The notes under the pieces: generated by a model | Database searches by the model: none | What the model was told of the DNA's origin: nothing | The model's input: the letters and a program-made list of their open reading frames with translations, nothing else | Program-made: the position numbers and the translations under genes | NCBI GenBank assembly: GCA_948567375.1 | Contig: OX419760.1 | Location: 15,004,001 to 15,068,000, forward strand | Direction of reading: 5' to 3' | DNA: 64,000 nucleotides | From: Lunularia cruciata | Taxonomy: Eukaryota; Streptophyta; Marchantiopsida; Lunulariales; Lunulariaceae | Shown: in pieces, positions 4,801 through 64,000 of the stretch | Numbering within the stretch: the first letter of the stretch is position 1 | Layout: each line of letters opens with the position of its first letter

Positions 4801-5900
4801 TCAAATTTTGGCCAAGGATTCTTGCTATTATCAATAATGATCCATAGATTGTAGGAGCTCAATCATCAAATGGCATCACTAGTACTCAAGGACTTACTTT
4901 TTGTGATGGTAGGTTATGGATCTTGGATGATCCACACATTAGAACCACCATCCTAGCACAATGTTATGATTCCGCCATTGTAGTAACGTTGGCATGGACA
5001 AGACTTTGGATACAACAAAAAGCTATCATTATCGGCCTAAGATGAGCAACAATGTGATGGATTATATTTGAAGCTACCTACTCTATCAGCAAAATAAAGC
5101 TTCTAATCAAGTCCCACAAGACTTCTTCAACCCCTTCTTACTCCTACACAATGATGGGAACAAGTAAGCATGGATCTAGTTTGTGAATTGCCCAAAACCC
5201 CCTCCGGATTTGACTTCATCATAGTCTTTGTTGATCAACTCAAAAAAATGATTCATAGACAACCTACCACCAAGGACATGACTGCTCCAAAATTAGCTCA
5301 ATTGTACGGAGATGTAGTCTTTTCTCACCATGTGCTGTTTTGAGTCCTCATCACTAATAGAGGCACTCAATTCACCAGTTTGTTTTGGAGAACACTCTTT
5401 GGGTTCTTCAAACCAAGTTGGCTATGTCCATGGCTTACCTACCATCCATAGATTGATGGACAAATAGAGTGGGTTAATTGCACTATTGAAGACATGTTTT
5501 GGGGCTTCACCCTAGAGGAGCAAGAAAGGTGGGATACCTTAGTCCTACTGGTGGAATTTGCATATAATAATTCAATGAATGCATCTACACATGCCACATC
5601 GTTCTTCCTTTCATGCCTTCAAGCTTGATGGAGAGCATCCTTTCAGACCTTCAAGCTTGATGAAGACCTTTCCTATGGATATCAAGGTGGATGTTATCAA
5701 CACTTTTGTTTCCAAAATCCAACAAGGAGTGGAGAATGCCAAAAATAGGTTGCACATTGCACATAATTGATAGAAAAGCATGCAAATGCACATCACCGGC
5801 ACTTGGAGTCAATGTTTGGGATCAAGTCTGACTGTTAATAACCAACCTCATGTTAGTTGGCCTCTGCAAGCTCAGACCTTGTTTTGTTGGGCCTTTTCCC
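4800..5900 (+). pseudogene. A: integrase (broken)
   Basis: The zinc-binding and catalytic-core parts align by eye with integrase in C (34235-33183). The second catalytic block reads ITNRGTQF near 5350, with asparagine where D keeps aspartate (ITDRGTQF). Many stops are present. The tail holds the repeated 'EHPFRPSSLMK' block near 5630. Confidence 0.82.
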
Positions 5901-33182: not shown

Positions 33183-34235
33183 TCAATTTTGCGCAATCTG
33201 TAACTTGTGCTTAGCGCTCTCCACACCTTGTTGGATTCTAGAAACAAATGTGTTGACTGCATCAACCTTGGTAGTCACTGGACGGATCTTCATCAAGCTA
33301 GAAGGTGTGAAGGGATGCTCACCATACTTGAGGAAGAACGGAGTGACCTGAGTGGACACATTCACTGAATTGTTGTAAGTGAATTCCACCAACGGTAATA
33401 GGGTGTGCCACCTCTCTTGCTCTTCTAAGGTGAAGCCGCGTAACATGTCTTCAATCATGCGATTCGCCCGCTCTGTTTGGCCATCTATTTGTGGGTGGTA
33501 AGCTGTGGACATGGCCAACTTGGTTTTGAAGAAACCAAAGAGTGTTCGCCAAAACAAACTGGTGAATTGGGTACTTCTATTGGTGATGAATACTCTAGAC
33601 AAGCCATGGTGAGCAAAGACTGCATCTAAGTATAGTTGAGCTAGTTGTGGAGCGGTCACCTCCTTAGTGGTAGGGCGTACATGAATCATTTTGCTGAGCC
33701 GGTCCACAAAGACCACAATGGAGTCAAACCCTGAGGTGGTCTTGGGTAATTCAGAGACGAGATCCATACTCACTTGTTCCCAACATTGGGTAGGAGTGGG
33801 GAGAGGTTGAAGGAGCCCTGCAGGAGCTTGATTAGAAGCTTTGTTCTGTTGACAAAGTAGGCAGCTACGCACATAGTCCATCACGTCGTTGCTCATCTTG
33901 GGCCAATAGTAATGGCACTTGACTGCATCCAAGGTCTTGTCCACTCTGGCATGAGCTGCAATGGCCGAATCATGACATTCCGCTAGGATGGTGGTGCGTA
34001 ATTCAAGGACATTTGGGATCCATAATCTGCTATCCCAAAAGGTGAGTCCTTGGGTGCTGGTGACGCCTTTGGACGATTGTGCTTCAACAATCTGTGGATC
34101 AGTTTTTGTAGCAGCTAGAATCTCTTGCCAGAATTCAGGGTTAATCTTAACCTCTGCCACCAAGTTGTTGGCCATTGGCATGCGGGTGAATGCATCTGCA
34201 AGTTGCTTCTTACCTTCCACGTAGGTGATTGTCAT
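33183..34235 (-). CDS. C: integrase (zinc-binding and catalytic core)
   Basis: Residues about 93-131 hold the HHCC zinc-binding domain (HARVDK ... SCLLCQQNKA). The core follows with VFVDRLSKMIH (first Asp). The second catalytic site reads FITNRSTQF; codon 33581-33579 is AAT (Asn), where D has Asp. The third site (QTERANRMIEDML, Glu) is intact. With Asn at the second site this copy should not integrate DNA itself. The ORF ends at a TGA at 33183; D has CAA at that codon. The next ORF continues in the same frame. Confidence 0.93.
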   Translation of the reverse strand: MTITYVEGKKQLADAFTRMPMANNLVAEVKINPEFWQEILAATKTDPQIVEAQSSKGVTSTQGLTFWDSRLWIPNVLELRTTILAECHDSAIAAHARVDKTLDAVKCHYYWPKMSNDVMDYVRSCLLCQQNKASNQAPAGLLQPLPTPTQCWEQVSMDLVSELPKTTSGFDSIVVFVDRLSKMIHVRPTTKEVTAPQLAQLYLDAVFAHHGLSRVFITNRSTQFTSLFWRTLFGFFKTKLAMSTAYHPQIDGQTERANRMIEDMLRGFTLEEQERWHTLLPLVEFTYNNSVNVSTQVTPFFLKYGEHPFTPSSLMKIRPVTTKVDAVNTFVSRIQQGVESAKHKLQIAQN

Positions 34236-34247
34236 GTTGAAGCGTTG

Positions 34248-34877
34248 TCACCACTCTGCCCACCGAATTTGGCAATGAGATAGATCCTTTTGCGTCTTGA
34301 GGTAGACTAGAGGTTTGTGGTTTGTCTCTACTACAAATGCCTTCTCGCCCAGGTAGTGCTTCCAATGCTTGGTTGCTAGAATGATAGCCAGCTCTTCTCG
34401 TTCTGTGGTGTGGTAGTTGCGTTCTGCTGGTAACAACTTTTGAGAGAAATATGCAATTGGATGCCATCCGTCATGCCACTCTTGTTGTAGGACTGCTCCT
34501 ATGGCTACGCCTGATGCATCTGTAGCCAACTTGATTGGACGTTTTGGGTCATACCACTTCAAGATTGGTGCATGTAGCAAGGCGGCCTTCAATTCTTGAA
34601 AGGCCAACTCTTGTGCAGTTCCCCATGTCCACTTCTTCCCCTTGCCAAGTAGTGCCGTTAAAGGTTGTGCAACCTTGGAGAAGTCCTTGACAAATCTACG
34701 ATAGAATCCCGTCAACCCCAAGAAGCTCTTAAGTTGAGTCTGATCTTCTGGAGCACTCCATTTTTGAATGACCTCTATTTTATCTATCAATACTTGAATG
34801 CCCTTTGCACTTACTCTATGCCCTAAGTAGTCTACTTCAGACTTGCCAAACTCACACTTTGAGATTTTGGCGTACAA
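34248..34877 (-). CDS. C: RT thumb and RNase H
   Basis: It begins [19 protein letters not shown] (RT end), has the conserved [18 protein letters not shown] link, and then RNase H with [15 protein letters not shown] (first catalytic Asp). It is in frame with the RT segment upstream and the integrase segment downstream, separated from each by a single nonsense codon. The stop at 34248 is TGA where A and D have AGA. Confidence 0.92.
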
Positions 34878-34907
34878 TTGATTCTGTCTTAGAATCTGGA
34901 GGACCTC

Positions 34908-36020
34908 TCATAGATGTTGTTTGTGTTTTGTCATCGTGCTACTATATACTAAGATATCATCTAAGAAGATGATAACAGACTTATCCAAGTATGGACGAAA
35001 TATGTCATTCATTAGACTCATGAAAGTGGCAGGCGCATTGGTGAGGCCAAAAGGCATCACAAGATACTCAAAGTGGCCATACTTGGTTCGAAAGGCAGTT
35101 TTGTATACATCCTCCTCTGCAATTCGGATTTGATTGTAACCGCTCCGCAAGTCCAGTTTGGTGAAGTATCTCGCTCCATGGAGTTGATCAAACAAGTCAT
35201 CCATGCGAGGTAAGGGGTATTTGTTCTTCACTGTTTGCTGATTGAGACCCCGATAGTCAATGCACATGCGCATTGTACCATCCTTCTTCTTCACAAACAA
35301 GACAGGGGCCCCATATGATGATACGCTAGGTTGGATAAACCCTTTCTGTAGCATCTCCTCAATTTGAGTCTTACACTCCTCCAACTCATGAGGTGATAGG
35401 CGATATGGGGCCTTACAAGGAGGTGTCTTCCCCGAGAGTGTCTCTATTTTGTGATCTACTCGCCTTTTAGGTGGTAATCCTAAGGGTAGATCATCAAGAA
35501 AGACATCTTGAAACTCATCTACCACATCCTTCAATTTCTCCAAAATTTGTCCAATGAGTTGTGCACTCTGGACTTCTCTTATTAGACCCATAAAACATCT
35601 ATCGGTCTTACAGACAGTTGTTGTCCCTACGACATATAGAGGCAGTTTCTGCCTGTGTGATTTTTCTTTAACCCCAATGATTGACCATTGGTGGGTTCTC
35701 ACTACTTTCTTCCTCCAATCCACCATTGGGTTGTACTGCTCCATCCATGGCATGCCTAAAATTGCATCATAACGGGCTAACTGTATCACTCGCCACTCAA
35801 TTGCTTCCTGATATTCTCCTACAGAGAGGGTTATCCATTTAGGTAATGATTCAATCCCCTCTGTTTGCCCATTTGGTAACTCTACTTCTTCACTTCCATC
35901 TCTCTCTAGATCCATTCCCAATCTTATTGCGACAGAGCGAGACAAGAAATTCTCTGTTGCTCCTGGATCTATTAATACTCTCACTTGATTACCTTCTAGG
36001 ATTCCATTCACAACAATCAA
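34908..36020 (-). CDS. C: aspartic protease and reverse transcriptase
   Basis: Residues about 14-28 carry the protease active site [13 protein letters not shown] (Asp-Pro-Gly). RT blocks: KKRRVDHK lead-in absent as such, but [16 protein letters not shown] near residue 195, [36 protein letters not shown] and the catalytic FLDDILVYS at 34967-34941. The ORF ends at TGA (34908-34910) where D has CGA, so this stop is a C-to-T change at a CpG. All expected RT motifs are intact, making this the best preserved pol segment of the family in the window. Confidence 0.95.
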
Positions 36021-36099
36021 TTGAGAGGTTGCCTTTTGGGCTCTTTGCGCATTATTCTTCTTCCTTCCCTTGCTTCTTTGCTTCCTTATTGAGCCTGTA

Positions 36100-37181
36100 A
36101 GGCCGCGAGGTACATTTACTGGCGATCTTTGTTTTCCGAAGTGGTTTCCACCTCCTCCTCTTCAATGTGCCTCTCCATGTTGTTCAAAGATCGCCTATAC
36201 AAAGGCCGAGGGCCTCTAGGGAAACGAGTGCAACAATTGGTAGATATGTGCCCAATACGGCCACAATTGTAACAACGGTGTTGTTCTCCTCAAGTCCCTT
36301 CTCCTCGTGGAGCTCCATCTCTTCGTTCTTCTACCCGTCCCCGCTCTCCTTGAAGTGGTCGTGCTCCTCGATCCTGGAATCAAAGGTTGCCCAATTCCAT
36401 TGGTACTGGTCCACCCATGTGTGGCATTTTTGCGCGATAATGTTGAGGTGGAACTACTCCTTCACCTCCACCTAATGCTCCTGTTATTCTTTGCGCACAA
36501 GCAATGGCTTCAAATACTATGCGAGGGTTTTGCACCATGACTTCTTGGCAGATCCGCTCTGTCAACCCTCGTTTGAAATTATCGAGAGCCTCTGCTGGAC
36601 TCATGTCGGTAATTGCAACTTGTAGATCCAGAAACAACTCCACATACTCTTGTACGCTATTCTTCTGTCTCAATCCCCATAGTCGGGTTCGAGCCATATG
36701 CACAAAATCCACCGATTGGAAATTCTTCAGCAATCCTTCTTGCATTGCTGTCCATGCAACCTCCCTTCTCTCTGCCAGCATGGATTGTTCCCAAGCATCA
36801 TACCATGTGAGGGCTTTATCCGTCAAGTACCCACATGCAAACACGCATGCAACATGCTTAGTGATCTCTGTTGAGAACAATTGGAAATATCTTCATTCTC
36901 GAGATCCAATTTTCCACTACTCCCATCGTACGCTGCCCCTTGTAAGGCTCGATGTTGCAAGTCTTCTTCATCCGGAGTAGCAATGTGGCTTCACCGTTCA
37001 TAGGGTTCGTAGGCACGGGTGCCTCTCCAAGCACTTTAGTCGTAGGTACATGGTTTTGAGGTGGCTCTTCTTCTTGCATGGCTTGATCGTTCCTCAGGAT
37101 CTGCACTTGACTTTGTAATGTCTCCATGGTCATCTTAATCTCTCGAAATTCATTCAACATCCCTTGCACCAGCTCTTGCAA
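36100..37181 (-). pseudogene. C: gag capsid and nucleocapsid (frameshifted)
   Basis: 37181-36858 is the N-terminal coiled part (EFREIKMTMETLQSQVQIL). A one-base shift near 36890 moves the frame to 36880-36380, which has KALTWYDAWEQS and the capsid C-terminus. The zinc knuckle CYNCGRIGHISTNC (complete CX2CX4HX4C) lies near 36274-36233. A stop after 36380 separates it from the knuckle. Apart from these lesions it is well preserved. Confidence 0.88.
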
Positions 37182-37226
37182 CTACGGATCCATGGTTCCT
37201 ACAACATCCAATTGCTAATGTCTTCT

Positions 37227-37656
37227 TCAATAAAGAGTCAATATAATCACTCTAGAAGGCGCACGAACTATCGGAACTACCATTGGGACCTCAGAAGCTA
37301 TCACTCGTTGATAATACTCCTCACCAAAATTCCTAACCACAAAATCTCTAAACATCACTTTCGGCCTTACTACATAACGGATTTCTACTTGAGTGTTGAA
37401 AGGGAGAGGATTTGGGACATTCATATCCATTTTATCATAATAGAATGTAGATCGTCAAATCCCACTCTTTGTCATATATCACCACAGGTAGAATCACCGG
37501 GTTTGGTGAGTTCATCACTCTGTCCATGAATTCCACACCAAAGTGATAAACTAGCAATACCCTCATCTGCTCACGCTGGATGTACATAACCTTGATGTGG
37601 AATGGGTTTGAAAATGGAAAGCTAGGTGCGGGAAATTGTCCCCCCGGCGTATCCAT
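37227..37656 (-). pseudogene. C: gag leader with duplicated module
   Basis: Two consecutive frames, 37656-37435 and 37430-37227, each hold a related module: NPFHIKVMYI...FGVEFMDRVMNSPNPVI and NPLPFNTQVEI...FGEEYYQRVIASEVPMV. A frameshift separates them, and a stop separates the second from the capsid part. Homologous pairs exist in A and D, so the duplication is ancestral. Function unknown. Confidence 0.65.
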
Positions 37657-37783
37657 CCCATCCGCTCTCTAAAGTCCTTCCTAAGTCTAGCGATTACTCT
37701 ATGTTCTCCACCTCACATTACTCAGTTTCAGTAGTTTGTGCTATTCCAAGAGGGATGATCCACTCTCTTGGACTAGAACACTC

Positions 37784-37795
37784 GCTCTGATACCA
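37784..37795 (-). other. Primer-binding site of C (initiator-Met tRNA type)
   Basis: The minus strand reads TGGTATCAGAGC, perfect, one base after the LTR. Confidence 0.93.
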
Positions 37796-37796
37796 T

Positions 37797-38553
37797 TGTA
37801 ATACTCCAAGGACAAGAGAAGAGAGAAAACATAGATTGCACACTCAAACATTCGATGCCCCAAGGGAGCACCTTCTCTTTATTATATAGACAAAGAGGAT
37901 CTCCTCCATGGAAGCTCCACCATAGGATTAGGGACACAGATAGGTGACATGTCAGCAAGCTCCACCCTTGGATTACTTACTTGGATGGGTGACCTGTCTG
38001 GTCTAGGTCCTATCTGGTTGGTCAAACAAGCTTTGACTGGAGGGAATCTTTTAGGGAATCTTCTTATAGGAATCGCAGAATCACATGAGTAAGGTACCGT
38101 TGGAAAGCTCTTGACGAGAAAAAGTAGGGGCACATTTTGGGGGGGGGGGGGGAATTTGCACATTTGGGGGGGGGGGGGGGGGGAATCTGCACATTTTTGA
38201 GGCCTAATTCATCCGTTTAGGCCTCCAAAATTGCCTTGAAAGATTTCAGGCATATTTCGGTTCCTACTCTATTAGTAGAAGTCCCCTTTTGGTGATATCT
38301 CTTTCTGATCTGTTTAGTCCATCATGTGTAACATCCTTCCAGATGTTACCAAACCAATTCTCACCTTTAAATCATATGTCTAGCTATTGGTTCTAAGGTT
38401 CTCAAGTCTATTTCGGTTTCTGCCCTAGTAGTAGAAGTACTCTTTTGGTGATACTTCTATCTGATCTATTTTGACCATCATGTATAACATCATTCTAGAT
38501 GTTACCAAACCAAATTTCACATCTAGATCATATGGCTAACCCTTGGTACTACA
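37797..38553 (-). repeat. Element C 5' LTR
   Basis: 757 bp. It differs from the 3' LTR mainly by expanded poly-G runs: two runs (38138-38152 and about 38166-38183) separated by a repeated TTTGCACATTT. A TATATAATA-like box faces the element on the minus strand (near 37883). Confidence 0.95.
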
Positions 38554-38558
38554 CATCC

Positions 38559-39771
38559 CCAACTTCTTCCTTGGAGTCTTTGTTGTTGATGGTGTTGAGG
38601 TGCAAGTGCTCCTAGTAGACATAGGAGTATCCTTGCTTGAAGTAAATCCTTGAGAAGAGTGAACATCCTCTGCAAAACGAGCTCTCTTCTTCTCTTGTGC
38701 CAAAAGCTCCAAATTAAGACTCTTGGAGTTTGAGCTTTCTCCCTTCTCATACTTGCTCTCCCCCACATCTATGGATGCTATCCCCTTACCTTTGTTTGGA
38801 TAAGGAGCCACTTGGGTTTCACTATCTCCCTCTTTCTCTCTATTGGCTCCCTCATAACCCCTTCCTCCATGGTAAGTGGAATTTGGGTAGTTCCTTTGGA
38901 TATGGCCTCTTCCTCCACAACCAAAATAATTTCTCTCATTGAAATTGTTGGCTGGTTGACCTCCTCTATATGGATAGTTTCCATAACTCCTAGGCCCTCT
39001 CCCTACATTCTGATCCACCTCTCTCTTCTCCCATAGTTGCACCACATTGATCTTGAGATCCGCAAGTTGTTTTGTGATGGTTTGGAGTGGATCTTTTGGT
39101 GGAGGTGCAAGAATTGGAGCAACTACTACTTGTGGTGCAACCCTTGTCACCAAAGTATCAGAAGTTCCACCATACTTGTAGCCTTGAGGAGGATGCACAA
39201 CCTCCTTCACCACCAAATCACTCTCATCCCCTTCCAAACTCTCCTCCATACGAATTGCGATCTTGATAGCTTCAACCTTGGAAGAAGGTTTCTCATATCT
39301 CACCTTGCTTCTAATTTGTGGTCTCAACCCTCCCACAAAATTCTTGGTGAGCATGGCCCCTATGCCAATCATTGTAGTCTCCACATCATCCCCACCCTTC
39401 CTCAACACTATGCAAAATCTGGACTCTAACTTTTCCACTCTTTCCACATAGACTCTCACTTTCTCTCCTTCTCCTTGCTTGAGAAATGTAACCTCACTCA
39501 TCAATCTCTCAAAACTCTCATCAGGAAGAAAGTTCTCAATGAGTGCTGAAGTCAAAGTCTCCCAAGACTCCTCTTCCCCCGCTCTCTTCTCTCTCTTTTG
39601 GTATTCTGACTCATACCATGTAAGTGTTGCATCCTCAAAGAAATCTGGTAATAATGAGGCCCAGTCATTCTTCCTCTTCTCATTTTTTCCTATGCAAGCT
39701 CTCTTGAAGTCTCTCACAAAGGCCTCCACATCTTCTCCATCCTTGCCAAAGAAAACCGGAAGTTTCCCCAT
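38559..39771 (-). CDS. B: Gag
   Basis: An open frame of about 400 codons starts at the ATG 39771 (MGKLPVFFGKDGEDVEAFV). It contains the capsid pattern FKRACIGKNEKRKNDWASLLP and DATLTWYESEYQKRE, a Gln/Asn-rich middle, and a zinc knuckle NYFGCGGRGHIQRNYPNS in which the first and last Cys positions read Tyr (CX2C and C lost). It ends in the B sequence at the edge of element C and would run into a stop soon after C is removed. Gag coats the RNA in the particle. The long intact frame contrasts with the missing pol. Confidence 0.88.
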
Positions 39772-47250: not shown

Positions 47251-48200
47251 TACTTTTGTTGATTTTGTGCAATCTGTAATCTGTGCTTGGCGCTCTCCAC
47301 ACCATGTTGGATTCTAGAAACAAATGTGTTGATTGCATCGACCTTGGTAGCCACTAGACGGATCTTCATCAAGCTAGAAGGTGTGAAGGGATGCTCACCA
47401 TACATGAGGAAGAACGGAGTGACCTGGGTGGATGCATTCACTGAATTGTTGTAAGAAAATTCCACCAATGAGAGTAGTGTGTCCCACCTCTCTTGCTCTT
47501 CTAAGGTGAAGCCGCATAACATGTCTTCAATCATCTGATTAGCCCGCTCTGTTTGGCCATCTGTTTGTGGGTGGTAAGATATGGGCATGGCCAACTTGGT
47601 TTGAAGAAACCAAAGAGTGTTTGCCAAAATAAGCTGGTGAATTGAGTGCCTCTATCGGTGATAAGTACTCTAGACAAGCCATGGTGAGAGAAGACTGCAT
47701 CTAAGTATAATTGAGCTAGTTGTAGAGCGATCACATCCTTGGTGGTAGGGCATACATGAATCATTTTGCTGAGCCGGTCCACAAAGACCATGATAGAGTC
47801 AAACCTTGAGGTGGTCTTGGGTAATTCACAAACAAGATCCATACTCACTTGTTCATAATGTTGGGTAGGCATGGGGAGATGTTGAAGGAGCCTTGTAGGA
47901 GATTGATTAGAAGCTTTGTTTTGTTGACAAAGAAGGTAGCTACGCACATAGTCTATCACATCGTTGCTCATCTTGGGCCAATAGTAATGGCGTTGGACTG
48001 CATCCAAGGTCTTGTCCACTTTGACATGACCTACAATGGCCGAATCATGATATTCTGCTAGAATGGTGGTGCATAATTCTGGGACATTTGGGATCCATAA
48101 TCTGTCATCACAAAAGGTGAGTCCTTGGGTGCTGGTGACGCTTCTACAATCTATGGATCAGTTTTTGTAGCAGCTAGAATCTTTGGCCAAAATTCAGGGT
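47250..48200 (-). pseudogene. D: integrase (broken)
   Basis: 48019-47531 holds the zinc-binding CQQNKA region, FVDRLSKMIH and an intact second catalytic block LITDRGTQF. A frameshift near 47600 moves to 47627-47250, which has QTERANQMIEDML. It keeps the aspartate that is asparagine in A and C. Confidence 0.88.
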
Positions 48201-55538: not shown

Positions 55539-56930
55539 CCTATGCCAAGATGTCACGCCATTTGTAGTGCCACGTCTAGATGCTCGGACACTGGAGTTCC
55601 AGTGATAGTAGTTAGAGTTATTTCAGCAGTATCTCAGAGACTACTTTTTGACGGTCAGATTTGGTGTTTGGGGTATTGACTTCACATTGGGGCCCACCGT
55701 CACTTTGCACCATTCACACCATCGAGTGTGCCGTCAGCGGGACCGTTAGGGTTTCAGTGCTAGCTCGAGTCCAGGGGGTATAGTTTTGAAGTGAGCTCCA
55801 GAGAGCTCACTTCTTTGATGCTGAGCCTTCGAGTCCCTGGCTATGGTGGACAGAGGCCGGCGAGCATCACCTGGATTCTCTATGCTTGAGTGGGTGTGGC
55901 TTGACTGTAATCAGTGCCAGTTGTTGGCAGTTTATAGAGTGACAGATCAAGTACTGATCTAAGTTGAGTTGAGTTGAGAGTGTTAAGCAATCTGATTACA
56001 TCACAGAAGTGAAGTCAGGGGGAAATCGGGTGCAGAAACTGTGAGTGTTGGTGGTATCTCCAAGCTCGATTGGTAGCTTGATTCAAGTTCAGTGTTTCCC
56101 TAGTGTGCAGAAGCTCGTTCAGTTGATGCAGATTTGGCAGTTAGGCAGACGGTGTGCGGAAGCGCTGGCCAAATGTTGAGCAGAGAAGGAGCAATTTTTG
56201 AGCAGTGTTGTGATTTTGAGCTCAAGAAGTGAAGGCAGGACCAATTTGCTGCGAGTTGGGCTCAGAAAGTCAAAGTGAAGGTGGAGTTGGGAAGCTTTTC
56301 TCATGAAATTGTGATTTGGAAAAACTAGTTTTGTCAATTTGGCTCGAGTGGAAAGTTAGCGGGGGATTTGGCAAACAGCTATCTTTAGGGTTTACATCAG
56401 ATTTTACGTCAGATTTACATCAGATTTTAGCCAGAATTGGAGGAGTTTTTGCTGTTTGGCCAGATTTGGAGGAGTTTTGCTAGTTTGGAGGACTTTTGCA
56501 GATTTGGAGAAGTTTTGCCAATTTTGGAGGAGGTTCGAAGTGGCAACAAGAAAGGCCTCATTTGGCTGAATTTCGGCGTTTTGAGGCATAGGGCTGTGGG
56601 CTATGAGAGGCTACAAAGGCCTAGAAGGGCCAAAAGGGCCAACAAGCTAGCTTGCTGGCATGAGGCTAGCTAGTTTAGAGTAGATCTTGGTCATTGGTTG
56701 GCAAAATCTGCCTTTCTTGCTAGATTGTGCGCAACAAGGTTTGACCCCTAGATCTCTTGTTCCTAGACTGGTACCCAAGCCAACTGGTCCACCCTCACTT
56801 GTTGTCATAGTGACTGTGCCACTGTTATCTATACACATGTAGCTTTGGCTAGGAGAGGCAGTTTGATCCCATTCTTGGTGATCCTGGTAGCTTAGGACTT
56901 AGATACAAACTCCTCTTATGTCAAATGCCA
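55539..56930 (+). repeat. P: 5' LTR (boundary uncertain)
   Basis: GC-richer noncoding sequence that ends ATGCCA before the putative primer-binding site. No second LTR is in the window, so the start cannot be checked. Confidence 0.45.
56432..56545 (+). repeat. P: AGATTTGGAGGAGTTTTGC degenerate tandem repeat
   Basis: Four to five imperfect copies of about 20-30 bp follow one another within the presumed LTR. Confidence 0.65.
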
Positions 56931-56932
56931 AA

Positions 56933-56950
56933 TGGTGGCAGAGTCGGTCC
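56933..56950 (+). other. Putative primer-binding site of P
   Basis: TGGTGGCAGAGTCGGTCC lies two bases after ATGCCA. It begins with TGG and could pair with a tRNA ending ...CTGCCACCA. I cannot name the tRNA. Confidence 0.5.
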
Positions 56951-57290
56951 CGTGTTGTGTTATGAGATGGAGGGTTTTTGTTTAGATTTCTTGTGATTGG
57001 ACCCCCTCCATTCTCTGCTTCCTGTTTGTGCACCACGTTTGTGTGAGGTGCCCTGACTTTTGAGCGTTGGTGCTCTAGTGTGCTCTCGGTGGTGAGGATG
57101 GAGTGATGACCAATCAGACTACCTTTGTTTCTCTCCGGTGAGGCAGGAAGTGATGACCTACAGACCGTGAGAGTGCATGTTATGATGGCAGGTTACAAGT
57201 TGCCCTTTCCCTTAGTGTAGTTATCTCGGTAGAGTTACATTAGTGGGTGGTGTTTAGTTGGTGTTGGCACTTGGTAGGGTACTTGCGGTT
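56951..57290 (+). other. P: leader before gag
   Basis: No supported coding. Repeats of GCGACTTGCGGTTGC occur near the end. Confidence 0.45.
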
Positions 57291-57295
57291 GCGAC

Positions 57296-59040
57296 TTGCG
57301 GTTGCAGTTGGTGGTTCGGGTTTGCTGTTGTGGTTACTTTGTCACGATAGAGTTCTTTGGAGATTCTAGAGGAGTTAGCCCTACAGTACGCAGTGGGTTT
57401 ACTCGGAGTGGTGCTTGGTATCAGCCTGTATCTCAAGTCCTAGTGAGAGAGGAGATTGACTCTGAGTTGGAGTTTGACACAGGAGCTGATTCAGTTGAGA
57501 GTGCACTTGGTGTGTCCGCACCGTTGTTGTGGGACATGGACAAGATTTATGGGGCCTCCAAAGGCCCTTGGCGTTACTCTAGTATAGTGGGTACCATTGA
57601 GTTGGATGACTTCATCTAGGAGTTCAATAGTTGGTGTGATCTGCAGCAGATGCGGAACCCGACTTTGTTCACACCCTTCATGGCATGGAAGGGGTTGTTT
57701 CAGCACTTGGAGGGTCCACCGATGGATGACTACCATGAGTTCAGGAGAGCTCATTTGGAGGAGATTGAGTTATGGAGACAGTATTGGTCTCCACACTATG
57801 TCTCCATCACTTCAGGCTCGGTGGCCAGGAGTAGATCGGCTGTACCTACGAGTTCTAGCTCAAGTAGTGTTGGTGGAGCTAGTGGAGGTGCACTGGCTGG
57901 AGATAGTGCTACTACGAGTGGAGGTACCGCTGCAACAGGTGGTGTAGTACCAGGGTTTAACCCCATGGTGGAGTTCTTTCTATGTTTGAGGCAGAACTAC
58001 CAAGGAGTGCGGACTGACAAGCTAAGGAGCTTGCAGGAGTTCCAGCGGAAGGCTAGAGAGAGCCTACACGAGGCATACACTTGCATGAGGCGGCTGATCA
58101 GTTTCACTCAAGGAGTTACTGAGGCCTAGGCAGTCCAGTTTTGGTATGGGATACTGGACAAGGAGTTACGACGTAGAGTTCATGATGCTACATTGTTGCA
58201 GGCTACCTCGCCCACTTTGGCAATAGTCTTTGGTTTGGCTGAGCGTATTGAGCTCAATATGGTGGAGGAGAGAGTGGTGACATCTGGATTTGATAGGGAG
58301 ACCTCATCCACAGCTGTGATTTCTTTTAGAGTGTAGCAGAGTGCACCACGCCTAGTTGGTTTTCAAGGACAGGGTGGACAGCCCAGATCCTATGGAGCAA
58401 GTGGAGGGCCTAGTAAAGTTAGACCCTTACCCTCATTTTTGAGTCAGCAGCAGCCAGTGAGTGGTGGTGTTGCTTGTTGGACTTGTGGTGGACCTCACCA
58501 TAGGAGAGAGTGTACTCAGGGCAGCGGACCTGATACCTCTGGTGCATCACAACCAGCAAAGAGGCAGTGTGAGCATTGCCACAGATTTGGTCACACTAGT
58601 GACCGGTGTTTTGACCTACACCCGGAGTTATGGAGTGGTAGGGCTGCTATGGTAGGTAGTAGAGGAGCTCCAGTTCATGGAGGACGAGGTGGTAGACGTG
58701 GTGGTAGAGGATCTACACCTAGTAGGGGTGCAGTACGTGCTCCAAAGCCTAGAGGAGCATCAATGGAGTTGGACCCACAAAGAGGAGAGGTTGGGAGACA
58801 TGTCAGACTTCCCCAGTCTTTCACGCTATCTGAGGCATTGCAGACGACATCCATGGTTCCTAGACGTCCCAGTGCAGGTGTGGTAGGTGGTGATGGAGTA
58901 CATGATGGACTACCTGCAAGTCAGCTACCTGCTACTACAAAGACTGAGTCTAGCATGATGTTGGGGGCGGCTCAGCTGATTATGCGGCGTCCTTTGTTTT
59001 CAGCCAGTGACATGTTTACATTGGGAGTTGACCCATCCGG
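57296..59040 (+). pseudogene. P: Gag
   Basis: 57296-57619, 57650-58129 and 58439-59095 share one frame, separated by in-frame TAG codons. Order: an acidic N-terminal part, capsid (ELDDFI*EFNSWCDLQQM across a TAG; HEAYTCMRRLISFTQGV), a Gly/Ser-rich insert, and two zinc knuckles. The knuckles are CWTCGGPHHRREC at 58475-58513 and CEHCHRFGHTSDRC (CX2CX4HX4C) at 58568-58609. A Gly/Arg-rich tail follows (GGRGGRRGGRGS). The doubled knuckle suggests strong RNA binding. Confidence 0.88.
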
Positions 59041-59887
59041 TTGGCTGCCACGTTGTGTGAGAGTAGGGATGGTGCAGTTCCTACTACTAGAGTAGAGGTA
59101 GTTGGTAGTGGAGCTGACTTGGTTGAGGAGCATGAGATCCGTTCAGTGACCAGTGGTTTATTGCAGGCAACAACGGCTAGACTGGAAGAGTTGCCAGCTA
59201 GACCGGCCTTTAAGAGAGCATGGTTTACACCTGGTGTTGTCCTATTGGATAACCAGAGGGGGATTTTTTGTTTGGTGGGACCTTCAGGGAATGTCTATAC
59301 ACCACAGAGAGTCTTTGTTAGACTCTGGTGCGCAGCTCCTTACGTTGGGGAAGGCTACAATTGTCGGTCTGGAGTTACGGAAGACCGATGTGGAGAGGTG
59401 TCCATTTCAGATCCAGACATCTCTTGGTGGTGGTTCGACATAGTACACCACACATAGAGAGCTTGTTGTCCAAGTTCAGCCAGGTCATCCGACTGATAGC
59501 TCGGTGGTGAGAGCTCAGGCTATTGCGATGATAGCTGAGTCATATGATGTGCTAGTTGGGGGAGCAGTGTTATACCCCATGGGTTTCAACATTGACTATT
59601 GGGAGGAGACAGCCTCTTATAGACTTGGTTGGCAGTCTGGTGAAAGACGGGTATGTCACCTACCAATACGCTTCAGTAGTGGCAGTCTTGGCTCACTACA
59701 GTCCGGGACCATGGCAGCATCAGTTTTAGCTTTTAGTGGTGCAGTTACTTGGCCTGGTGACTTGTTGGAGGGGAACGCCCATGTAGAGGATACTCCAATA
59801 CCAGAGGAGATCACTCGGCTTTGAAGTACGAGTGGGATTGTTCCATTAGGAGATGAGTGTGAGGATGAGCCTCCAGAGGCAATTGCT
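59041..59887 (+). pseudogene. P: aspartic protease
   Basis: The active site SLLDSGAQLLTLG (Asp-Ser-Gly-Ala) lies at 59315-59350, followed by KATIVGLELRKTDVERCPF. The segment 59504-59824 continues in the same frame. The upstream 59041-59300 is in a different frame (frameshifts near 59040 and 59300). A TAG at about 59444 and a TGA at 59822 break the frame. It leads directly into the methyltransferase without a change of frame. Confidence 0.85.
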
Positions 59888-59935
59888 TTGACACCTCTGG
59901 ATACCACACTCATTGCTTGGCAGTATCCAGTAGAG

Positions 59936-60890
59936 GGGATATGCCTATTGGAGTTGTTTGGTGGGATCAGCACCGGACTAGCTGCGGTGTTACAGGCGGG
60001 TATACGAGTACAGAGGTACTTGTATGTAGAGAGAGATGAGATTGCTAGGCGAGTCTCTCTACATCATGTGGCCTATTGGTATCCGGAGTTATTACCAATG
60101 TCAGCAGTCAGAGGTTACCAGAAAGCCCTACCAGGAGACATTTCCTTACTGGGAGCGCATGACCTAGAGAGACATGGGCCTATTCACTTGGTGATTTTTG
60201 GATGGCCATGGCAGGGACATACACGTGCGGGCCGCAGTTTGGGTCTTCAGGATCCTCGTTCTGGTGTGTTTTGGGAGATGTTACGGATACTACGACATCT
60301 CCAGGTTCATCAGTCCATTTCTCCAGCTTACCTTTTGGAGAACGTTCCTTTGATGAGTGATTCTTGCACTAGAGTGGTGGCGAGTACATATCAGGTCCAT
60401 TCTTGGATGGGACCTGCTGTATTGTTAGATGCAGCCAAAGTGGGATCACGGGCTCATCGTCTTTGTCTTTGGTGGATGAACCTCTTACCCAGAAAGGTTC
60501 TACAGCGTGCTTATGATGGGATTCAGCAACTAGACCTTCTTGTTGATGATATCTTGGATGTTGGGCGTCAATCTCAGACAGTGGTAGTGGCTGATAGGTC
60601 ATCTATGGCAGTGGTGAACCTAGTTGGACAGCCTAGAGCCGCATTTCCCACACTCATGAGTTTCCTAGGCTCTCATGCTTTTTGAGAGGGAGGACCTGGA
60701 CTTGTTTGGGACTCACTGTTACAACAGTTGGTGGAGCCCAATGCTGATGAGAAGAGAGGGCAATGGGTTTTTGCACCGGTATTACTGCTGTTCCAGCAGT
60801 GTCAGAGGCATCAAGGCGTCAGGTGTTAGGTCAGGCTATAGACCTGAATTGTTTGACCTGGATTGTGAGCCTTGGCTTGGTAGAGTAGCG
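59936..60890 (+). pseudogene. P: DNA (cytosine-5) methyltransferase domain, DNMT3-like
   Basis: Motif I LELFGGISTGLAAVLQAGI (59948-60000; cofactor binding), motif II region RYLYVERDEIARRV (60014-60055), motif IV LVIFGWPWQGHTRAG (60191-60230), motif VI YLLENVP (60329-60349), motif VIII DAAKVGSRAHRLCLWW (60428-60475). After a frameshift near 60750 come motif IX ERAMGFCTG (60754-60780) and motif X RRQVLGQA (60814-60837). The wording of motifs I, VIII and X is closest to DNMT3/DRM-type enzymes. The catalytic Cys of PCQ is Trp (codon 60209-60211). The 59888-60685 part is in frame with the protease; motifs IX and X are in frame with RT. About 315 residues, a normal catalytic-domain size. This copy is probably inactive. 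Confidence 0.92.
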
Positions 60891-61317
60891 TAGGATGCGC
60901 TTGATAGGCATCACCACTCGGACACTTGTGAGCCCTATGCCTATCGAGACGATTCAAACACATGCTGGGGGCGATGGACTGAGTGGACATGGTATTCTTG
61001 GGACACATCCTATAGCTACTAGGGAGAGTGGTCTACTTGGAATCCATCCAGGTGAGCGTGGGCTACTTGGATTACACCCTTGGTCCACATGGGATGCAGC
61101 TAGAGGATGTGTGGAGCTTGTAGCCAGAGTGGAGGGAGTTTTTTGCACAGAGGTTGGGACCTCTAGTGGTCGGGAGCATGACACTATTGCTCCCAAGGGC
61201 CTAGTGTAGCAGTCAGTCAGTACGTCTTCCACTCCTACTACAGTTACAGAGGATACTTGGGAGCCAGATCTTGGACCCAAGCTTACTGGAGAGGAAAGAC
61301 GGAGGGTTTGGAGGTTC
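60891..61317 (+). pseudogene. P: linker between methyltransferase and RT
   Basis: In frame with RT. It contains three repeats of the pattern GxLGxHP (GILGTHP, GLLGIHP, GLLGLHP) at about 60980-61080, then reaches RT after two TAG codons (60890 and 61207). No known domain. Confidence 0.6.
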
Positions 61318-62130
61318 TTGAGGAGTCACACGAGTTGTTTTGCCTTCAGTATGAAGGATTTGGATGCTCTAAAAGGACCTGGTATACGGATTGAGCTGAC
61401 TAGCAACACACCAATTTTCCGACGTCCTTATCGATATAGTGATATAGAGAGGACATTGATTCAGAGCCGAAGTAGTGACCTTTTTGAGGCTGGTTTGGTG
61501 GAGATTTCACATGGAGAGTATGCATCAGCAACAGTAACGCCAGCCAAGAAGGATATGCATGGCAACTATACAGATAGGCGGATGTGTGGAGATTACCATC
61601 CTATCAACCAACAGACTAGGGCTGATCGGTATGCCATGCCTACACCGAAGGAGATTCTTGATGCGATTGGGCATGCAAAGGTCTTCAGTACTTTGCATCT
61701 TCGAGCAAGATATCATCAGTTGCCGATCAGGGAGGAGGATAAGTCCAAGACAGCATTTTGGGCTATTGATCCTCATGGCAAGGATGTATTATATCAGTGG
61801 AGGTTCTTACCATTTGGGTTAAAGAATGCTCTTGCTGAGTTCTAGAGGGTCATGGATAGGATCCTAGCTGGATTGGATTTTTCTCGGTGCTATATTGATG
61901 ACATTTTGGTTTATAGCACTACTATGGAGGAGCATGAGAGACAATTGTTGGAGGTTTTTGAGAGGTTGAGATCTCATGGCCTCAAACTACATCCTGGGAA
62001 GTGTAGGTTCTTCCACGAGCAGGTTGAGTATTTGGATCACAATATCTACCCTGGAGGACTTGGTGTTCAGCAGACCAAGGTGGAGGCTATTGCACATATT
62101 CCTCGGCCTACGGATGTGAGCAGAGTGTGA
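61318..62130 (+). pseudogene. P: reverse transcriptase
   Basis: 61318-61845 and 61852-62130 share one frame, separated by a TAG. Motifs: RRMCGDYHPINQQTRADRYAMP, VFSTLHLRARYHQLP (DLRSGYHQ in relatives), WRFLPFGLKNALAEF, and the catalytic RCYIDDILVYS with an intact YIDD at 61891-61902. The first catalytic Asp region reads HLRA, where DLRS is usual, so this site is changed. Confidence 0.92.
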
Positions 62131-62760
62131 GCATTCCTTGGGTTGGCAAACTTCTATTGCCGCTATGTTAGAGGATTTAGTGCCATTGCCAAGGCCTTGA
62201 CGAAGCTGACCAAGCTTACACAGGAGTGGTGTTGGGGAGATGAGTAGGAGAGAGCTTTTGTAGAGCTCAAGGAGAGGTTGACATTTGTTCTTATTTTGAG
62301 GAGACCGATCAGGGGACGACCATTTCAAGTTCATACTGATTGGAGTATGTTGGGGCTTGGAGCGGTGCTCACCCAACATGATGATGAGGAGAAGGAGTTT
62401 GTGGTGGCCTATGCTAGTCGCTCCAACAATTCAGCAGAGGCAAAGTATAGTTCATATGAGGGAGAGTGCTTGGCAGCAGTTTGGGCAGTAGCACATTTCC
62501 GATGTTACCTATTTGGTAACCCCTTCACTCTCATCACTAATCATCAGCCACTGAAGTGGTTGATGGAGTCTGACAAGCTTTCAAGGAAGCTTGCACGATG
62601 GGCTCTGATTTTACAGGAGTATGATTTCATGGTTGTTCACAGACCTAGAGTGGTGAACCGTGATGCAGATGGGTTGAGTAGAAACCCATGTCCCAGCCAG
62701 CAGGATCAGACCGGAGCACGTTGGCATGGTGAGACAAATGAGGAGATGGTGCCAGGTTGG
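62131..62760 (+). pseudogene. P: RT connection and RNase H
   Basis: AFLGLANFYCRYVRGFS then, after a TAG, FQVHTDWSMLGLGAVLTQ (first catalytic Asp), EGECLAAVWAVAHFRCYLFG (Glu) and ITNHQPLKWLM. The third site reads ITNHQ where ITDHQ is typical. RVVNRDADGLSRNP closes the domain. Part of the ORF 62278-63060. Confidence 0.9.
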
Positions 62761-63318
62761 CATGCATCGGCCTTTCTGTGTATATTTGCAGAGGCTTTGG
62801 TGGTATCTCTCTCAGTGCATAAAGGAGGAGTTATTGAGGTCACAGATCTAGAGAGTGAAGATATCGGTATAGTTCAGCGAGACATTCATGATGATGTCTT
62901 AGTGATGGACTATCTTTGCATTGGTGTTGTGGGTGGCACAGTTGGGGCCAAGGAGAGAGACCGTGTTCTTCAGCAAGCCAGACGGTTCAGATTGGAGGGT
63001 AGACACCTTTTGCGTGTATGGGAGGATGGTAGAGTGCAAGTAGTACCACTTCCAGCATAGAGACCACAGTTGGTCCGTCATGCTCATGAGGAGCTAGGAC
63101 ATTTTGAAGTAAAGCGTACATATAGCTTACTCCAGAGTCATTATTGGTGGCACGGTATGCAGACCAAGGTACAGCAGTTTGTTGCCAGATGTGTGGTTTG
63201 TGACCGAGTTAGAGCATCATTCAATGCTCCTACGCCACAATTACACCCATTACCTATCATGGGATTGGGTTACCATTGGAGTTTGGACTTTGTTGGACCT
63301 TTACTGCTAACTGTGAGA
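62761..63318 (+). pseudogene. P: integrase, N-terminal part (cut)
   Basis: A spacer and then, after a TAG at 63058, the zinc-binding domain HAHEELGHFEVKRTYSLLQ and ARCVVCDRVRA (HHCC) at 63079-63215. The core starts with WSLDFVGPLLL (first catalytic Asp) and is cut at 63318 by the family-B LTR. The rest is beyond or lost. Confidence 0.9.
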
Positions 63319-63997
63319 TGTGAGCCGGCCTGTCTCTCACTCAGGATGAACCTCTGATGGCTATTATGGTAGCGCACCATGGACTAAGAAGGCAAGGAAC
63401 CCCAACTCCATCATACTCCTCCAAGGCTAACACTCCAAGACTCAAGACATTGCTCACTAGAGAACTCAATGAGAGAGAGATAGTTGCAAATGAAAGGATG
63501 ATGAGTACCTCCTCACTCCTTGTTTATATACTTGTGAAATAGTTACGTACCAAAGTTACTAATTACCGTAGTAACTCAAGTTACTAGACTAAAAGTCAAG
63601 TAAAGTCAAAAAGTAGAAAGGAATATCCATTCACATGGGCATATTCCCCTTATCTTGACCCAACCACTAAAGCAAGGATTCCTTCACATGGGCTATCCTT
63701 GGACTAAAGAAGAATCCAAAACAAAAAGGCTTGCGGGCCCAAGAGTTCTCAACTCTTTCCCCAAAGCCAAACACCTAGGAATAATACCAAGTCAACACAC
63801 TAAAATCCAAAATAGTGGTGCTCATCTTTTCTACTTCCTCTAAAGTAAGGTCCCATCTATCTTAGCTATGACTAACTTTAGCTAACCATGACTAATATAG
63901 AACCATCCTTTATCTCTATATAAATAATATCTCTTAAGTACTTGTAATACCAAGCTAAATATCACAATACCACACACATGCACAAATGGGTGTTACA
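63319..63997 (-). repeat. 3' LTR of a second family-B element (F)
   Basis: 679 bp, TGTGAGCCGGCC...GGTGTTACA, followed by TTT, the first bases of B's TTTACCCCCGG tract. So it is probably the 3' LTR of a minus-strand element whose body lies to the right. It inserted into P's integrase core. Confidence 0.85.
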
Positions 63998-64000
63998 TTT

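Follow-up and report, generated by a model that had tools for sequence, protein, structure and literature searches.

A DNMT3-type methyltransferase domain in a Ty3/gypsy-type retroelement of a land plant

Does a DNA methyltransferase (MTase) lying between the protease (PR) and the reverse transcriptase (RT) of a plant retroelement belong to that element, and what might it do there? The question was raised by a first-pass annotation of the window (the whole 64,000-nucleotide stretch of DNA analysed here), which had placed a cytosine-5 MTase domain inside a Ty3/gypsy pol at 59936-60890, coordinates that suit the domain we delimit at 59888-60890.

A degenerate DNMT3-type domain in the window

The open reading frame (ORF) at 59888-60685 matched the Pfam family DNA_methylase (PF00145) at 25.8 bits (E = 8.8e-6), above the curated cut-off of 22 bits, which was also exceeded by the MTase of L022, a full copy from the source genome (32.1 bits). 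Among solved structures, human DNMT3A/B were the top matches of this ORF (DNMT3A best, E = 5.9e-7), and a profile built from 40 relatives was nearest to DNMT3A (2.6e-18), followed by DRM-type enzymes (6.8e-9), HaeIII (4e-5), DNMT2 (3.2e-4) and HhaI (1.1e-3). An AlphaFold model of one relative, P0001 (pLDDT 73.8, pTM 0.78), was matched by Foldseek to DNMT3A/B across the entire domain (best E = 1.1e-14), and motifs I to X therefore follow in linear order, without the DRM rearrangement. Among the non-element candidates in the source genome, L054 and L058 are presumably DRM, L055 and L057 DNMT3, and L056 CMT, going by motif order and wording; the DRM-like exon L054 has a rearranged motif order, unlike the element MTase. 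Pfam, PDB sequence, profile and fold together identify the domain at 59888-60890 as a DNMT3-type cytosine-5 methyltransferase. The original description, DNMT3/DRM-like, thus stands for DNMT3 and falls for DRM, the motif order being linear. A DRM or bacterial source chosen by best match was not favoured by the 40-relative profile; the trees compared element MTases with cellular DNMT3 and DRM sequences.

The domain lies in a Ty3/gypsy-type element at 55551-63318 (+ strand, as are all its parts). At the 5' end, the terminal repeat A1 (55551-55998), which starts TGTCACGCC, shares 92.4% identity with A2 of copy L040 and is followed by a 5' untranslated region (56005-57255; colinear with L022) with a weak primer-binding-site-like stretch after A1. 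The gag region (57536-58792) begins at an ATG that corresponds by homology to the first codon of Marchantia Mp_4g09160, has stops inside, and carries two motifs read from the sequence at 58475-58609 that we take to be CCHC-type and zinc-knuckle-like, with no family match; L022 matched the Pfam family Retrotrans_gag only weakly, under the cut-off (E = 0.01). The protease region and linker (58793-59887) contain LLDSGAQ at 59315-59335, which we take to be the protease active-site motif, and the corresponding pieces of L022 gave no Pfam match. Downstream of the MTase, an in-frame TAG (61207-61209) between the MTase and RT ORFs is followed by CAGTCA, where 20/20 fetched copies read CAGCCA. RT and RNase H then span 61210-62774 (RVT_1, 49.1 bits at 61852-62127; RT_RNaseH, 9.4e-36; 96.2% identity to L022), and the zinc-binding H2C2 part at the start of integrase spans 62775-63318 (Integrase_H2C2, E = 1.1e-15). 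Alignment to full copies stops at 63318, so the window copy lacks the integrase core, the PHD finger and the repeats B1, A2 and B2. Past this break, which a deletion, recombination or a later insertion may have caused, 63319-64000 showed no alignment to the pieces of the element that were compared.

Since A1, 5' untranslated region, gag, PR, MTase, RT and integrase start are colinear with full copies, the MTase is not a separate insertion; insertion into one copy is ruled out, the MTase being at the same place in 20/20 fetched copies. Pfam, the DNMT3A match and colinearity thus bear out the claim of a cytosine-5 MTase within a Ty3/gypsy-type polyprotein in the order PR-MTase-RT. The accompanying claim that motifs I, IV, VI, VIII, IX and X run in order fits the linear DNMT3 type but only partly fits this copy. 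Motif IV reads PWQ (60206-60214) in place of the PCQ of 20/20 fetched copies, so that the catalytic Cys has become Trp, and a stop at 60683-60685 ends the MTase frame, leaving motifs IX-X in other frames. With further stops in gag and RT, the window copy is a dead, inactive relic.

This relic also bears traces of methylation. Counted where four natural copies share the same base, C-to-T/G-to-A changes in this one decayed copy affected 62/377 CG, 76/713 CHG and 58/2432 CHH cytosines, against a comparison rate of 38/3431 for transitions at A/T sites. Counting against L040 alone (5' part displaced) gave the same outcome (CG 44/286, CHG 61/537, CHH 40/1748, A/T 28/2485). The CG and CHG excess points to methylation after insertion, then deamination, and host MET and CMT enzymes would by themselves explain it.

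Elsewhere in the window, a second Ty3/gypsy element (33183-39771, - strand; Gag, PR, RT, RNase H and integrase pieces) provides a local contrast, having PR and RT in one ORF with no MTase between them; in RT, it shares 36% identity with the MTase element. An integrase fragment lies at 47531-48019 (- strand; H2C2, with rve just below cut-off).

Full copies with a leaky-type stop, a PHD finger and split repeats

A search of the 74 contigs of the source genome (565.8 Mb) yielded at least 144 scored matches from 12,176 first-look candidates, and all 144, the window copy included, span residues 1-265 at 91-100% identity. We fetched 20 copies, 10 kb each, selected for long open frames. The MTase occupied the identical position in 20/20, each with PCQ at motif IV, so the PR-MTase-RT copies asked for at first pass do exist. 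Weighing against a working enzyme, 4/20 copies had a stop within the MTase stretch and 4/20 a stop between position 5308 and the TAG. The element family nonetheless looks functional from its sequence, unlike the window copy.

Pooled dN/dS among copies was 0.26 for RT (n = 18), 0.31 for gag (n = 14), 0.33 for PR (n = 18), 0.44 for MTase (n = 20), 0.52 for RNase H (n = 17), 0.72 for integrase (n = 15) and 1.03 for the linker (n = 20). The wrong-frame controls for the MTase gave 0.35 and 1.00, so the control was not clean, which weighs against our preferred explanation below. With one wrong frame at 0.35 against 0.44 for the true frame, dN/dS among copies is too weak to prove selection on the MTase, and the argument for constraint was placed instead on catalytic residues and cross-species identity.

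In full copies, ORF1 comprises Gag (with the zinc-knuckle-like motifs), protease (LLDSGAQ) and MTase. It probably begins at L022:1843 (window 57536), where an ATG lines up with the first residue of Marchantia Mp_4g09160 (P0069); this protein begins at the homologous Met and ends at most 9 residues from the homologous stop. Beyond the in-frame TAG, Pfam places RT, RNase H and integrase in the same frame, followed by a PHD finger. L022 matched RVT_1, RT_RNaseH, Integrase_H2C2 and rve, with the PHD finger at the integrase C-terminus (E = 7.6e-12), and the PHD signature was intact in 16/20 copies. The codons TAG CAG CCA (TAGCAGCCA) separate MTase and RT in 20/20 copies without a change of frame, and these, like the TAG CAG TCA of the window copy, match UAG CAR YYA. 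CAR YYA after UAG is reported to be essential for readthrough in TMV (PMC2754532). The element's TAG therefore has what looks like the context of a programmed leaky stop of the TMV/tobamovirus type, and the MTase, which precedes this conserved stop, belongs to the Gag-side ORF.

Stop context and repeats were read from DNA of the source genome only, and scans of IMG/VR for DNA of relatives found none. At the protein level, 28 bryophyte-type proteins reach the MTase end, where a protein end may be a stop codon or the end of a model or contig: 18 extend 71-127 residues beyond it, another 5 finish no more than 13 residues from it, and the other 5, which are gene models from Marchantia or Sphagnum, continue into RT or integrase. 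MTase and RT are joined in one predicted protein in Klebsormidium (P0166) and Closterium (for example P0121, P0126 and P0150), which argues that Gag-side expression is not lineage-wide, unless these models were spliced over a stop.

Insertion ends were readable on both sides in 16/20 copies (L028, L030, L033 and L038 were dropped). All 16 had the arrangement A1-internal-B1-A2-B2, with A only at the 5' end and B-GC-A-B at the 3' end (A, 440-458 bp; B, ~106 bp); B was not found in any of 13 upstream 500-base pieces. The B1-A2 junction was a perfect palindrome, GACAGCTGTC, in 13/16 copies. A purine-rich stretch precedes B1 and a weak primer site follows A1. Perfect 4-bp target duplications flanked 15/16 copies, L037 being the one without. 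Within a copy, A1 and A2 diverged on average by 2.05% (median 1.56%; L037, 10%), and divergence among copies was 2.6%. L022 has the RT-RNase H then DDE integrase order of Ty3/gypsy elements, yet two like flanking LTRs were absent from 16/16 copies; we therefore call the element Ty3/gypsy-type by its pol and not an ordinary LTR element. DIRS/PAT elements are not known to make target duplications. The present element departs from them in having an rve integrase rather than a tyrosine recombinase, together with the 4-bp duplications in 15/16 copies.

Relatives and known systems

Related proteins were found in Marchantia polymorpha, M. paleacea, Calypogeia fissa, Sphagnum troendelagicum, S. tenellum, S. 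fallax, Closterium and many metagenome contigs. The longer proteins from Marchantia, Sphagnum fallax and Closterium contained recognisable parts of the element other than the MTase; the Calypogeia and M. paleacea matches were MTase stretches only. Going by the nearest relatives, the host is probably a bryophyte and perhaps a liverwort. A search from Closterium added Klebsormidium nitens KFL_013780020 and KFL_009030040, whose sequences make them very likely KnitGypsy-Dnmt3 elements. The K. nitens relatives comprise P0159 (PR-MT) and P0166 (PR-MT-RT-RH-IN; partial, ending before the place of the PHD finger).

Across 61 aligned rows (58 relatives and 3 copies of the source genome), the catalytic Cys was present in 57 and the Glu-Asn of motif VI in all. 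Between the source genome and Marchantia, identity was 66-73% for MTase, 71-77% for RT (81% over one 83-residue piece), 59-62% for Gag and 48-59% for PR, so that by these alignments the MTase appears to be kept about as well as RT. Identity to the K. nitens relatives was 43% for MT and 45% for RT. Among the annotated host proteins of M. polymorpha, P0069, P0070, P0072-P0079, P0082 and P0085 are the Gag-PR-MTase ORFs of retrotransposons, whole or in part; with some of these models running into RT, plant DNMT gene counts may be affected.

A second group of metagenome proteins, P0094-P0120, carries the MTase between RNase H and integrase (RT-RH-MTase-IN) and formed one clade in RT trees (99/99, 100/99, 98/87). 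PHD-like spacing was present in 21/27 of these, whereas a PHD in integrase was not seen in 36 others (34 Closterium/Klebsormidium, 2 metagenome), many of which lack that end; a PHD-bearing integrase common to all relatives was thus not borne out. The very divergent P0125 has the order MTase-RT-IN, no PHD match and ASPCLH at motif IV. In MTase trees, the element MTases formed one clade (99/99 with 21 rows, 97/86 with 30 rows) against the only four cellular sequences included (human DNMT3A and, from the host, one DNMT3 and two DRMs), a topology that fits a single capture and a later change of place within pol. In the 30-row MTase tree, the K. nitens pair did not group. An unrooted RT tree set the Klebsormidium, Closterium and bryophyte rows with P0125 and P0161 against the RT-RH-MT clade (100/99), and when it was rooted on one other Ty3 element, Klebsormidium shifted beside that clade. 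With the branching changing on rooting, we abandoned vertical descent as a reading of the unrooted order.

The closest known system is KnitGypsy-Dnmt3 of K. nitens, and the source-genome element is of the same kind. KnitGypsy-Dnmt3 is described as combining Gypsy domains, a non-rearranged DNMT3 in the polyprotein and A-coding-B-A-B repeats (PMC5890265), all of which we found in source-genome copies. The latter differ in their conserved leaky-type UAG, integrase PHD finger and land-plant host; the words PHD and readthrough are absent from the main text of PMC5890265. Such elements have thus been known since 2018 from an alga, which qualifies the initial statement that none was known from this plant lineage. 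That statement holds for land plants, for which we found no report in the open-access literature, nor any of a leaky stop or PHD finger in such elements. A mention of retrotransposon DNMT3 in streptophytes (PMC12344493) cites the K. nitens work. The source genome extends DNMT3-bearing retrotransposons to land plants, and we have not seen described before the TAG-CAG-CCA between MTase and RT, the C-terminal PHD finger of integrase, the split repeats with 4-bp duplications, or the second clade with its MTase between RNase H and integrase.

Other systems share single features. SymbioDIRS-Dnmt3 and SymbioLINE-Dnmt of Symbiodinium are likewise retrotransposons bearing a cytosine-5 MTase, the former with DNMT3 in Pol and A-coding-B-A-B repeats, but they use tyrosine recombinase or LINE machinery and live in dinoflagellate hosts (PMC5890265). 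PAT and Ngaro have split direct repeats A1-B1-A2-B2, and some DIRS/PAT/Ngaro groups carry an MT (PMC4157794); theirs is of the adenine (Dam-like) type and accompanied by a tyrosine recombinase (PMC5890265), in contrast to the DDE integrase and 4-bp duplications of the source-genome element. In that element, a PHD finger stands in place of a chromodomain, and an MTase is added, when it is set beside plant chromoviruses. Those are Ty3/gypsy elements whose pol has a chromatin-reading module at the integrase C-terminus. Animal DNMT3A, which joins an ADD domain to its MTase, has the same catalytic fold and likewise unites a histone H3 reader with a DNA methylation writer in one system; in the element, these two functions are divided between ORFs, and the putative H3 reader is a classical PHD.

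What the methyltransferase may do for the element

The reading we favour, as reasonably probable on this comparative evidence, is that an abundant element of the KnitGypsy-Dnmt3 kind keeps its captured DNMT3 as a conserved working part, made at the Gag level, packaged, and pre-methylating the element's own cDNA. Most ribosomes would halt at the UAG, making Gag-PR-MTase the abundant product, and the MTase would be packaged into virus-like particles. There we infer that it would act on the element's own DNA, methylating the double-stranded cDNA before integration, probably at CG as other DNMT3 enzymes do. The integrase, its PHD finger reading histone H3 tails, would then place the pre-methylated copy, and the likely gain is that new copies would arrive resembling host heterochromatin.

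The repeats allow a different use, which we regard as unlikely: the MTase may serve a circular DNA intermediate, marking or protecting the circle or guiding which junction is cut. Under an ordinary model of reverse transcription, the product [B-GC-A]-internal-[B-GC-A] would close into a two-repeat circle, and integrase would open the palindrome GACA-GC-TGTC inside one repeat; the integrated form would be that circle opened at one B/GC/A palindrome. The A-internal-B-GC-A-B order in all 16 copies readable at both ends, the absence of B from all 13 upstream pieces, the palindromic junction in 13 of those 16 and the purine-rich stretch before B1 all favour such a circle. MTs also recur in elements with split or inverted repeats, namely some YRE retrotransposons (PMC4157794), SymbioDIRS-Dnmt3 and KnitGypsy-Dnmt3 (PMC5890265), but Ngaro and Viper are described with split repeats and no MT (PMC4157794). 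The circle, moreover, is deduced from the repeats, and the primer-binding site is only weakly tRNA-like (compared with an iMet sequence).

The way the window copy has decayed at CG and CHG sites, a sign of methylation after insertion, would suit a decidedly unlikely alternative in which the MTase exerts self-restraint, acting locally to silence new copies or the host genome, so that the host is less damaged and the element lasts longer. However, CHG methylation points to plant CMT-type enzymes and not DNMT3, so the CHG share in the one copy examined suggests the host's own enzymes, and a trait that lowers its bearer's transposition would be hard to maintain at such copy number. The self-restraint idea was itself raised in PMC5890265. 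Very improbable, to our minds, is a hitch-hiking fold, captured and retained for structure, RNA binding or RNA methylation and not for DNA methylation. The KnitGypsy-Dnmt3 enzyme did give no methylation in a yeast assay, a result its authors judged inconclusive, while the SymbioDIRS DNMT3s performed de novo CG methylation in yeast (PMC5890265); constraint within the genome is also weaker on the MTase than on RT (0.44 against 0.26). Against this stand catalytic residues kept from algae to bryophytes and a profile far nearer DNMT3 than the RNA enzyme DNMT2 (2.6e-18 against 3.2e-4).

Pre-methylation of cDNA can be joined to the circle in a wider and rather doubtful scenario. An ancient streptophyte retroelement would have taken up DNMT3 once, before or around the split of Klebsormidium and land plants or with spread between lineages, and shifted the domain within its polyprotein. 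Bryophyte elements would use it at the Gag level, packaged; with the integrase PHD it would form a two-protein counterpart of DNMT3A that pre-methylates circular cDNA, which the DDE integrase would open at the internal palindromic junction and insert into H3K4-unmethylated chromatin. The K. nitens case was first presented as a gain that this lineage had made independently (PMC5890265); a single capture would recast it as part of an old lineage.

The leaky UAG, PHD finger and split repeats make the role of the MTase directly testable. Plant methylomes are explained by host enzymes, five of which are listed for Marchantia polymorpha (MET, two CMT and two DRM; PMC5784723), and the source genome holds at least 144 well-matching element DNMT3-type domains. 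If these are active, de novo methylation in such plants would have an unlisted, parasite-owned source, and a retroelement would be writing the very mark that is normally used for its silencing.
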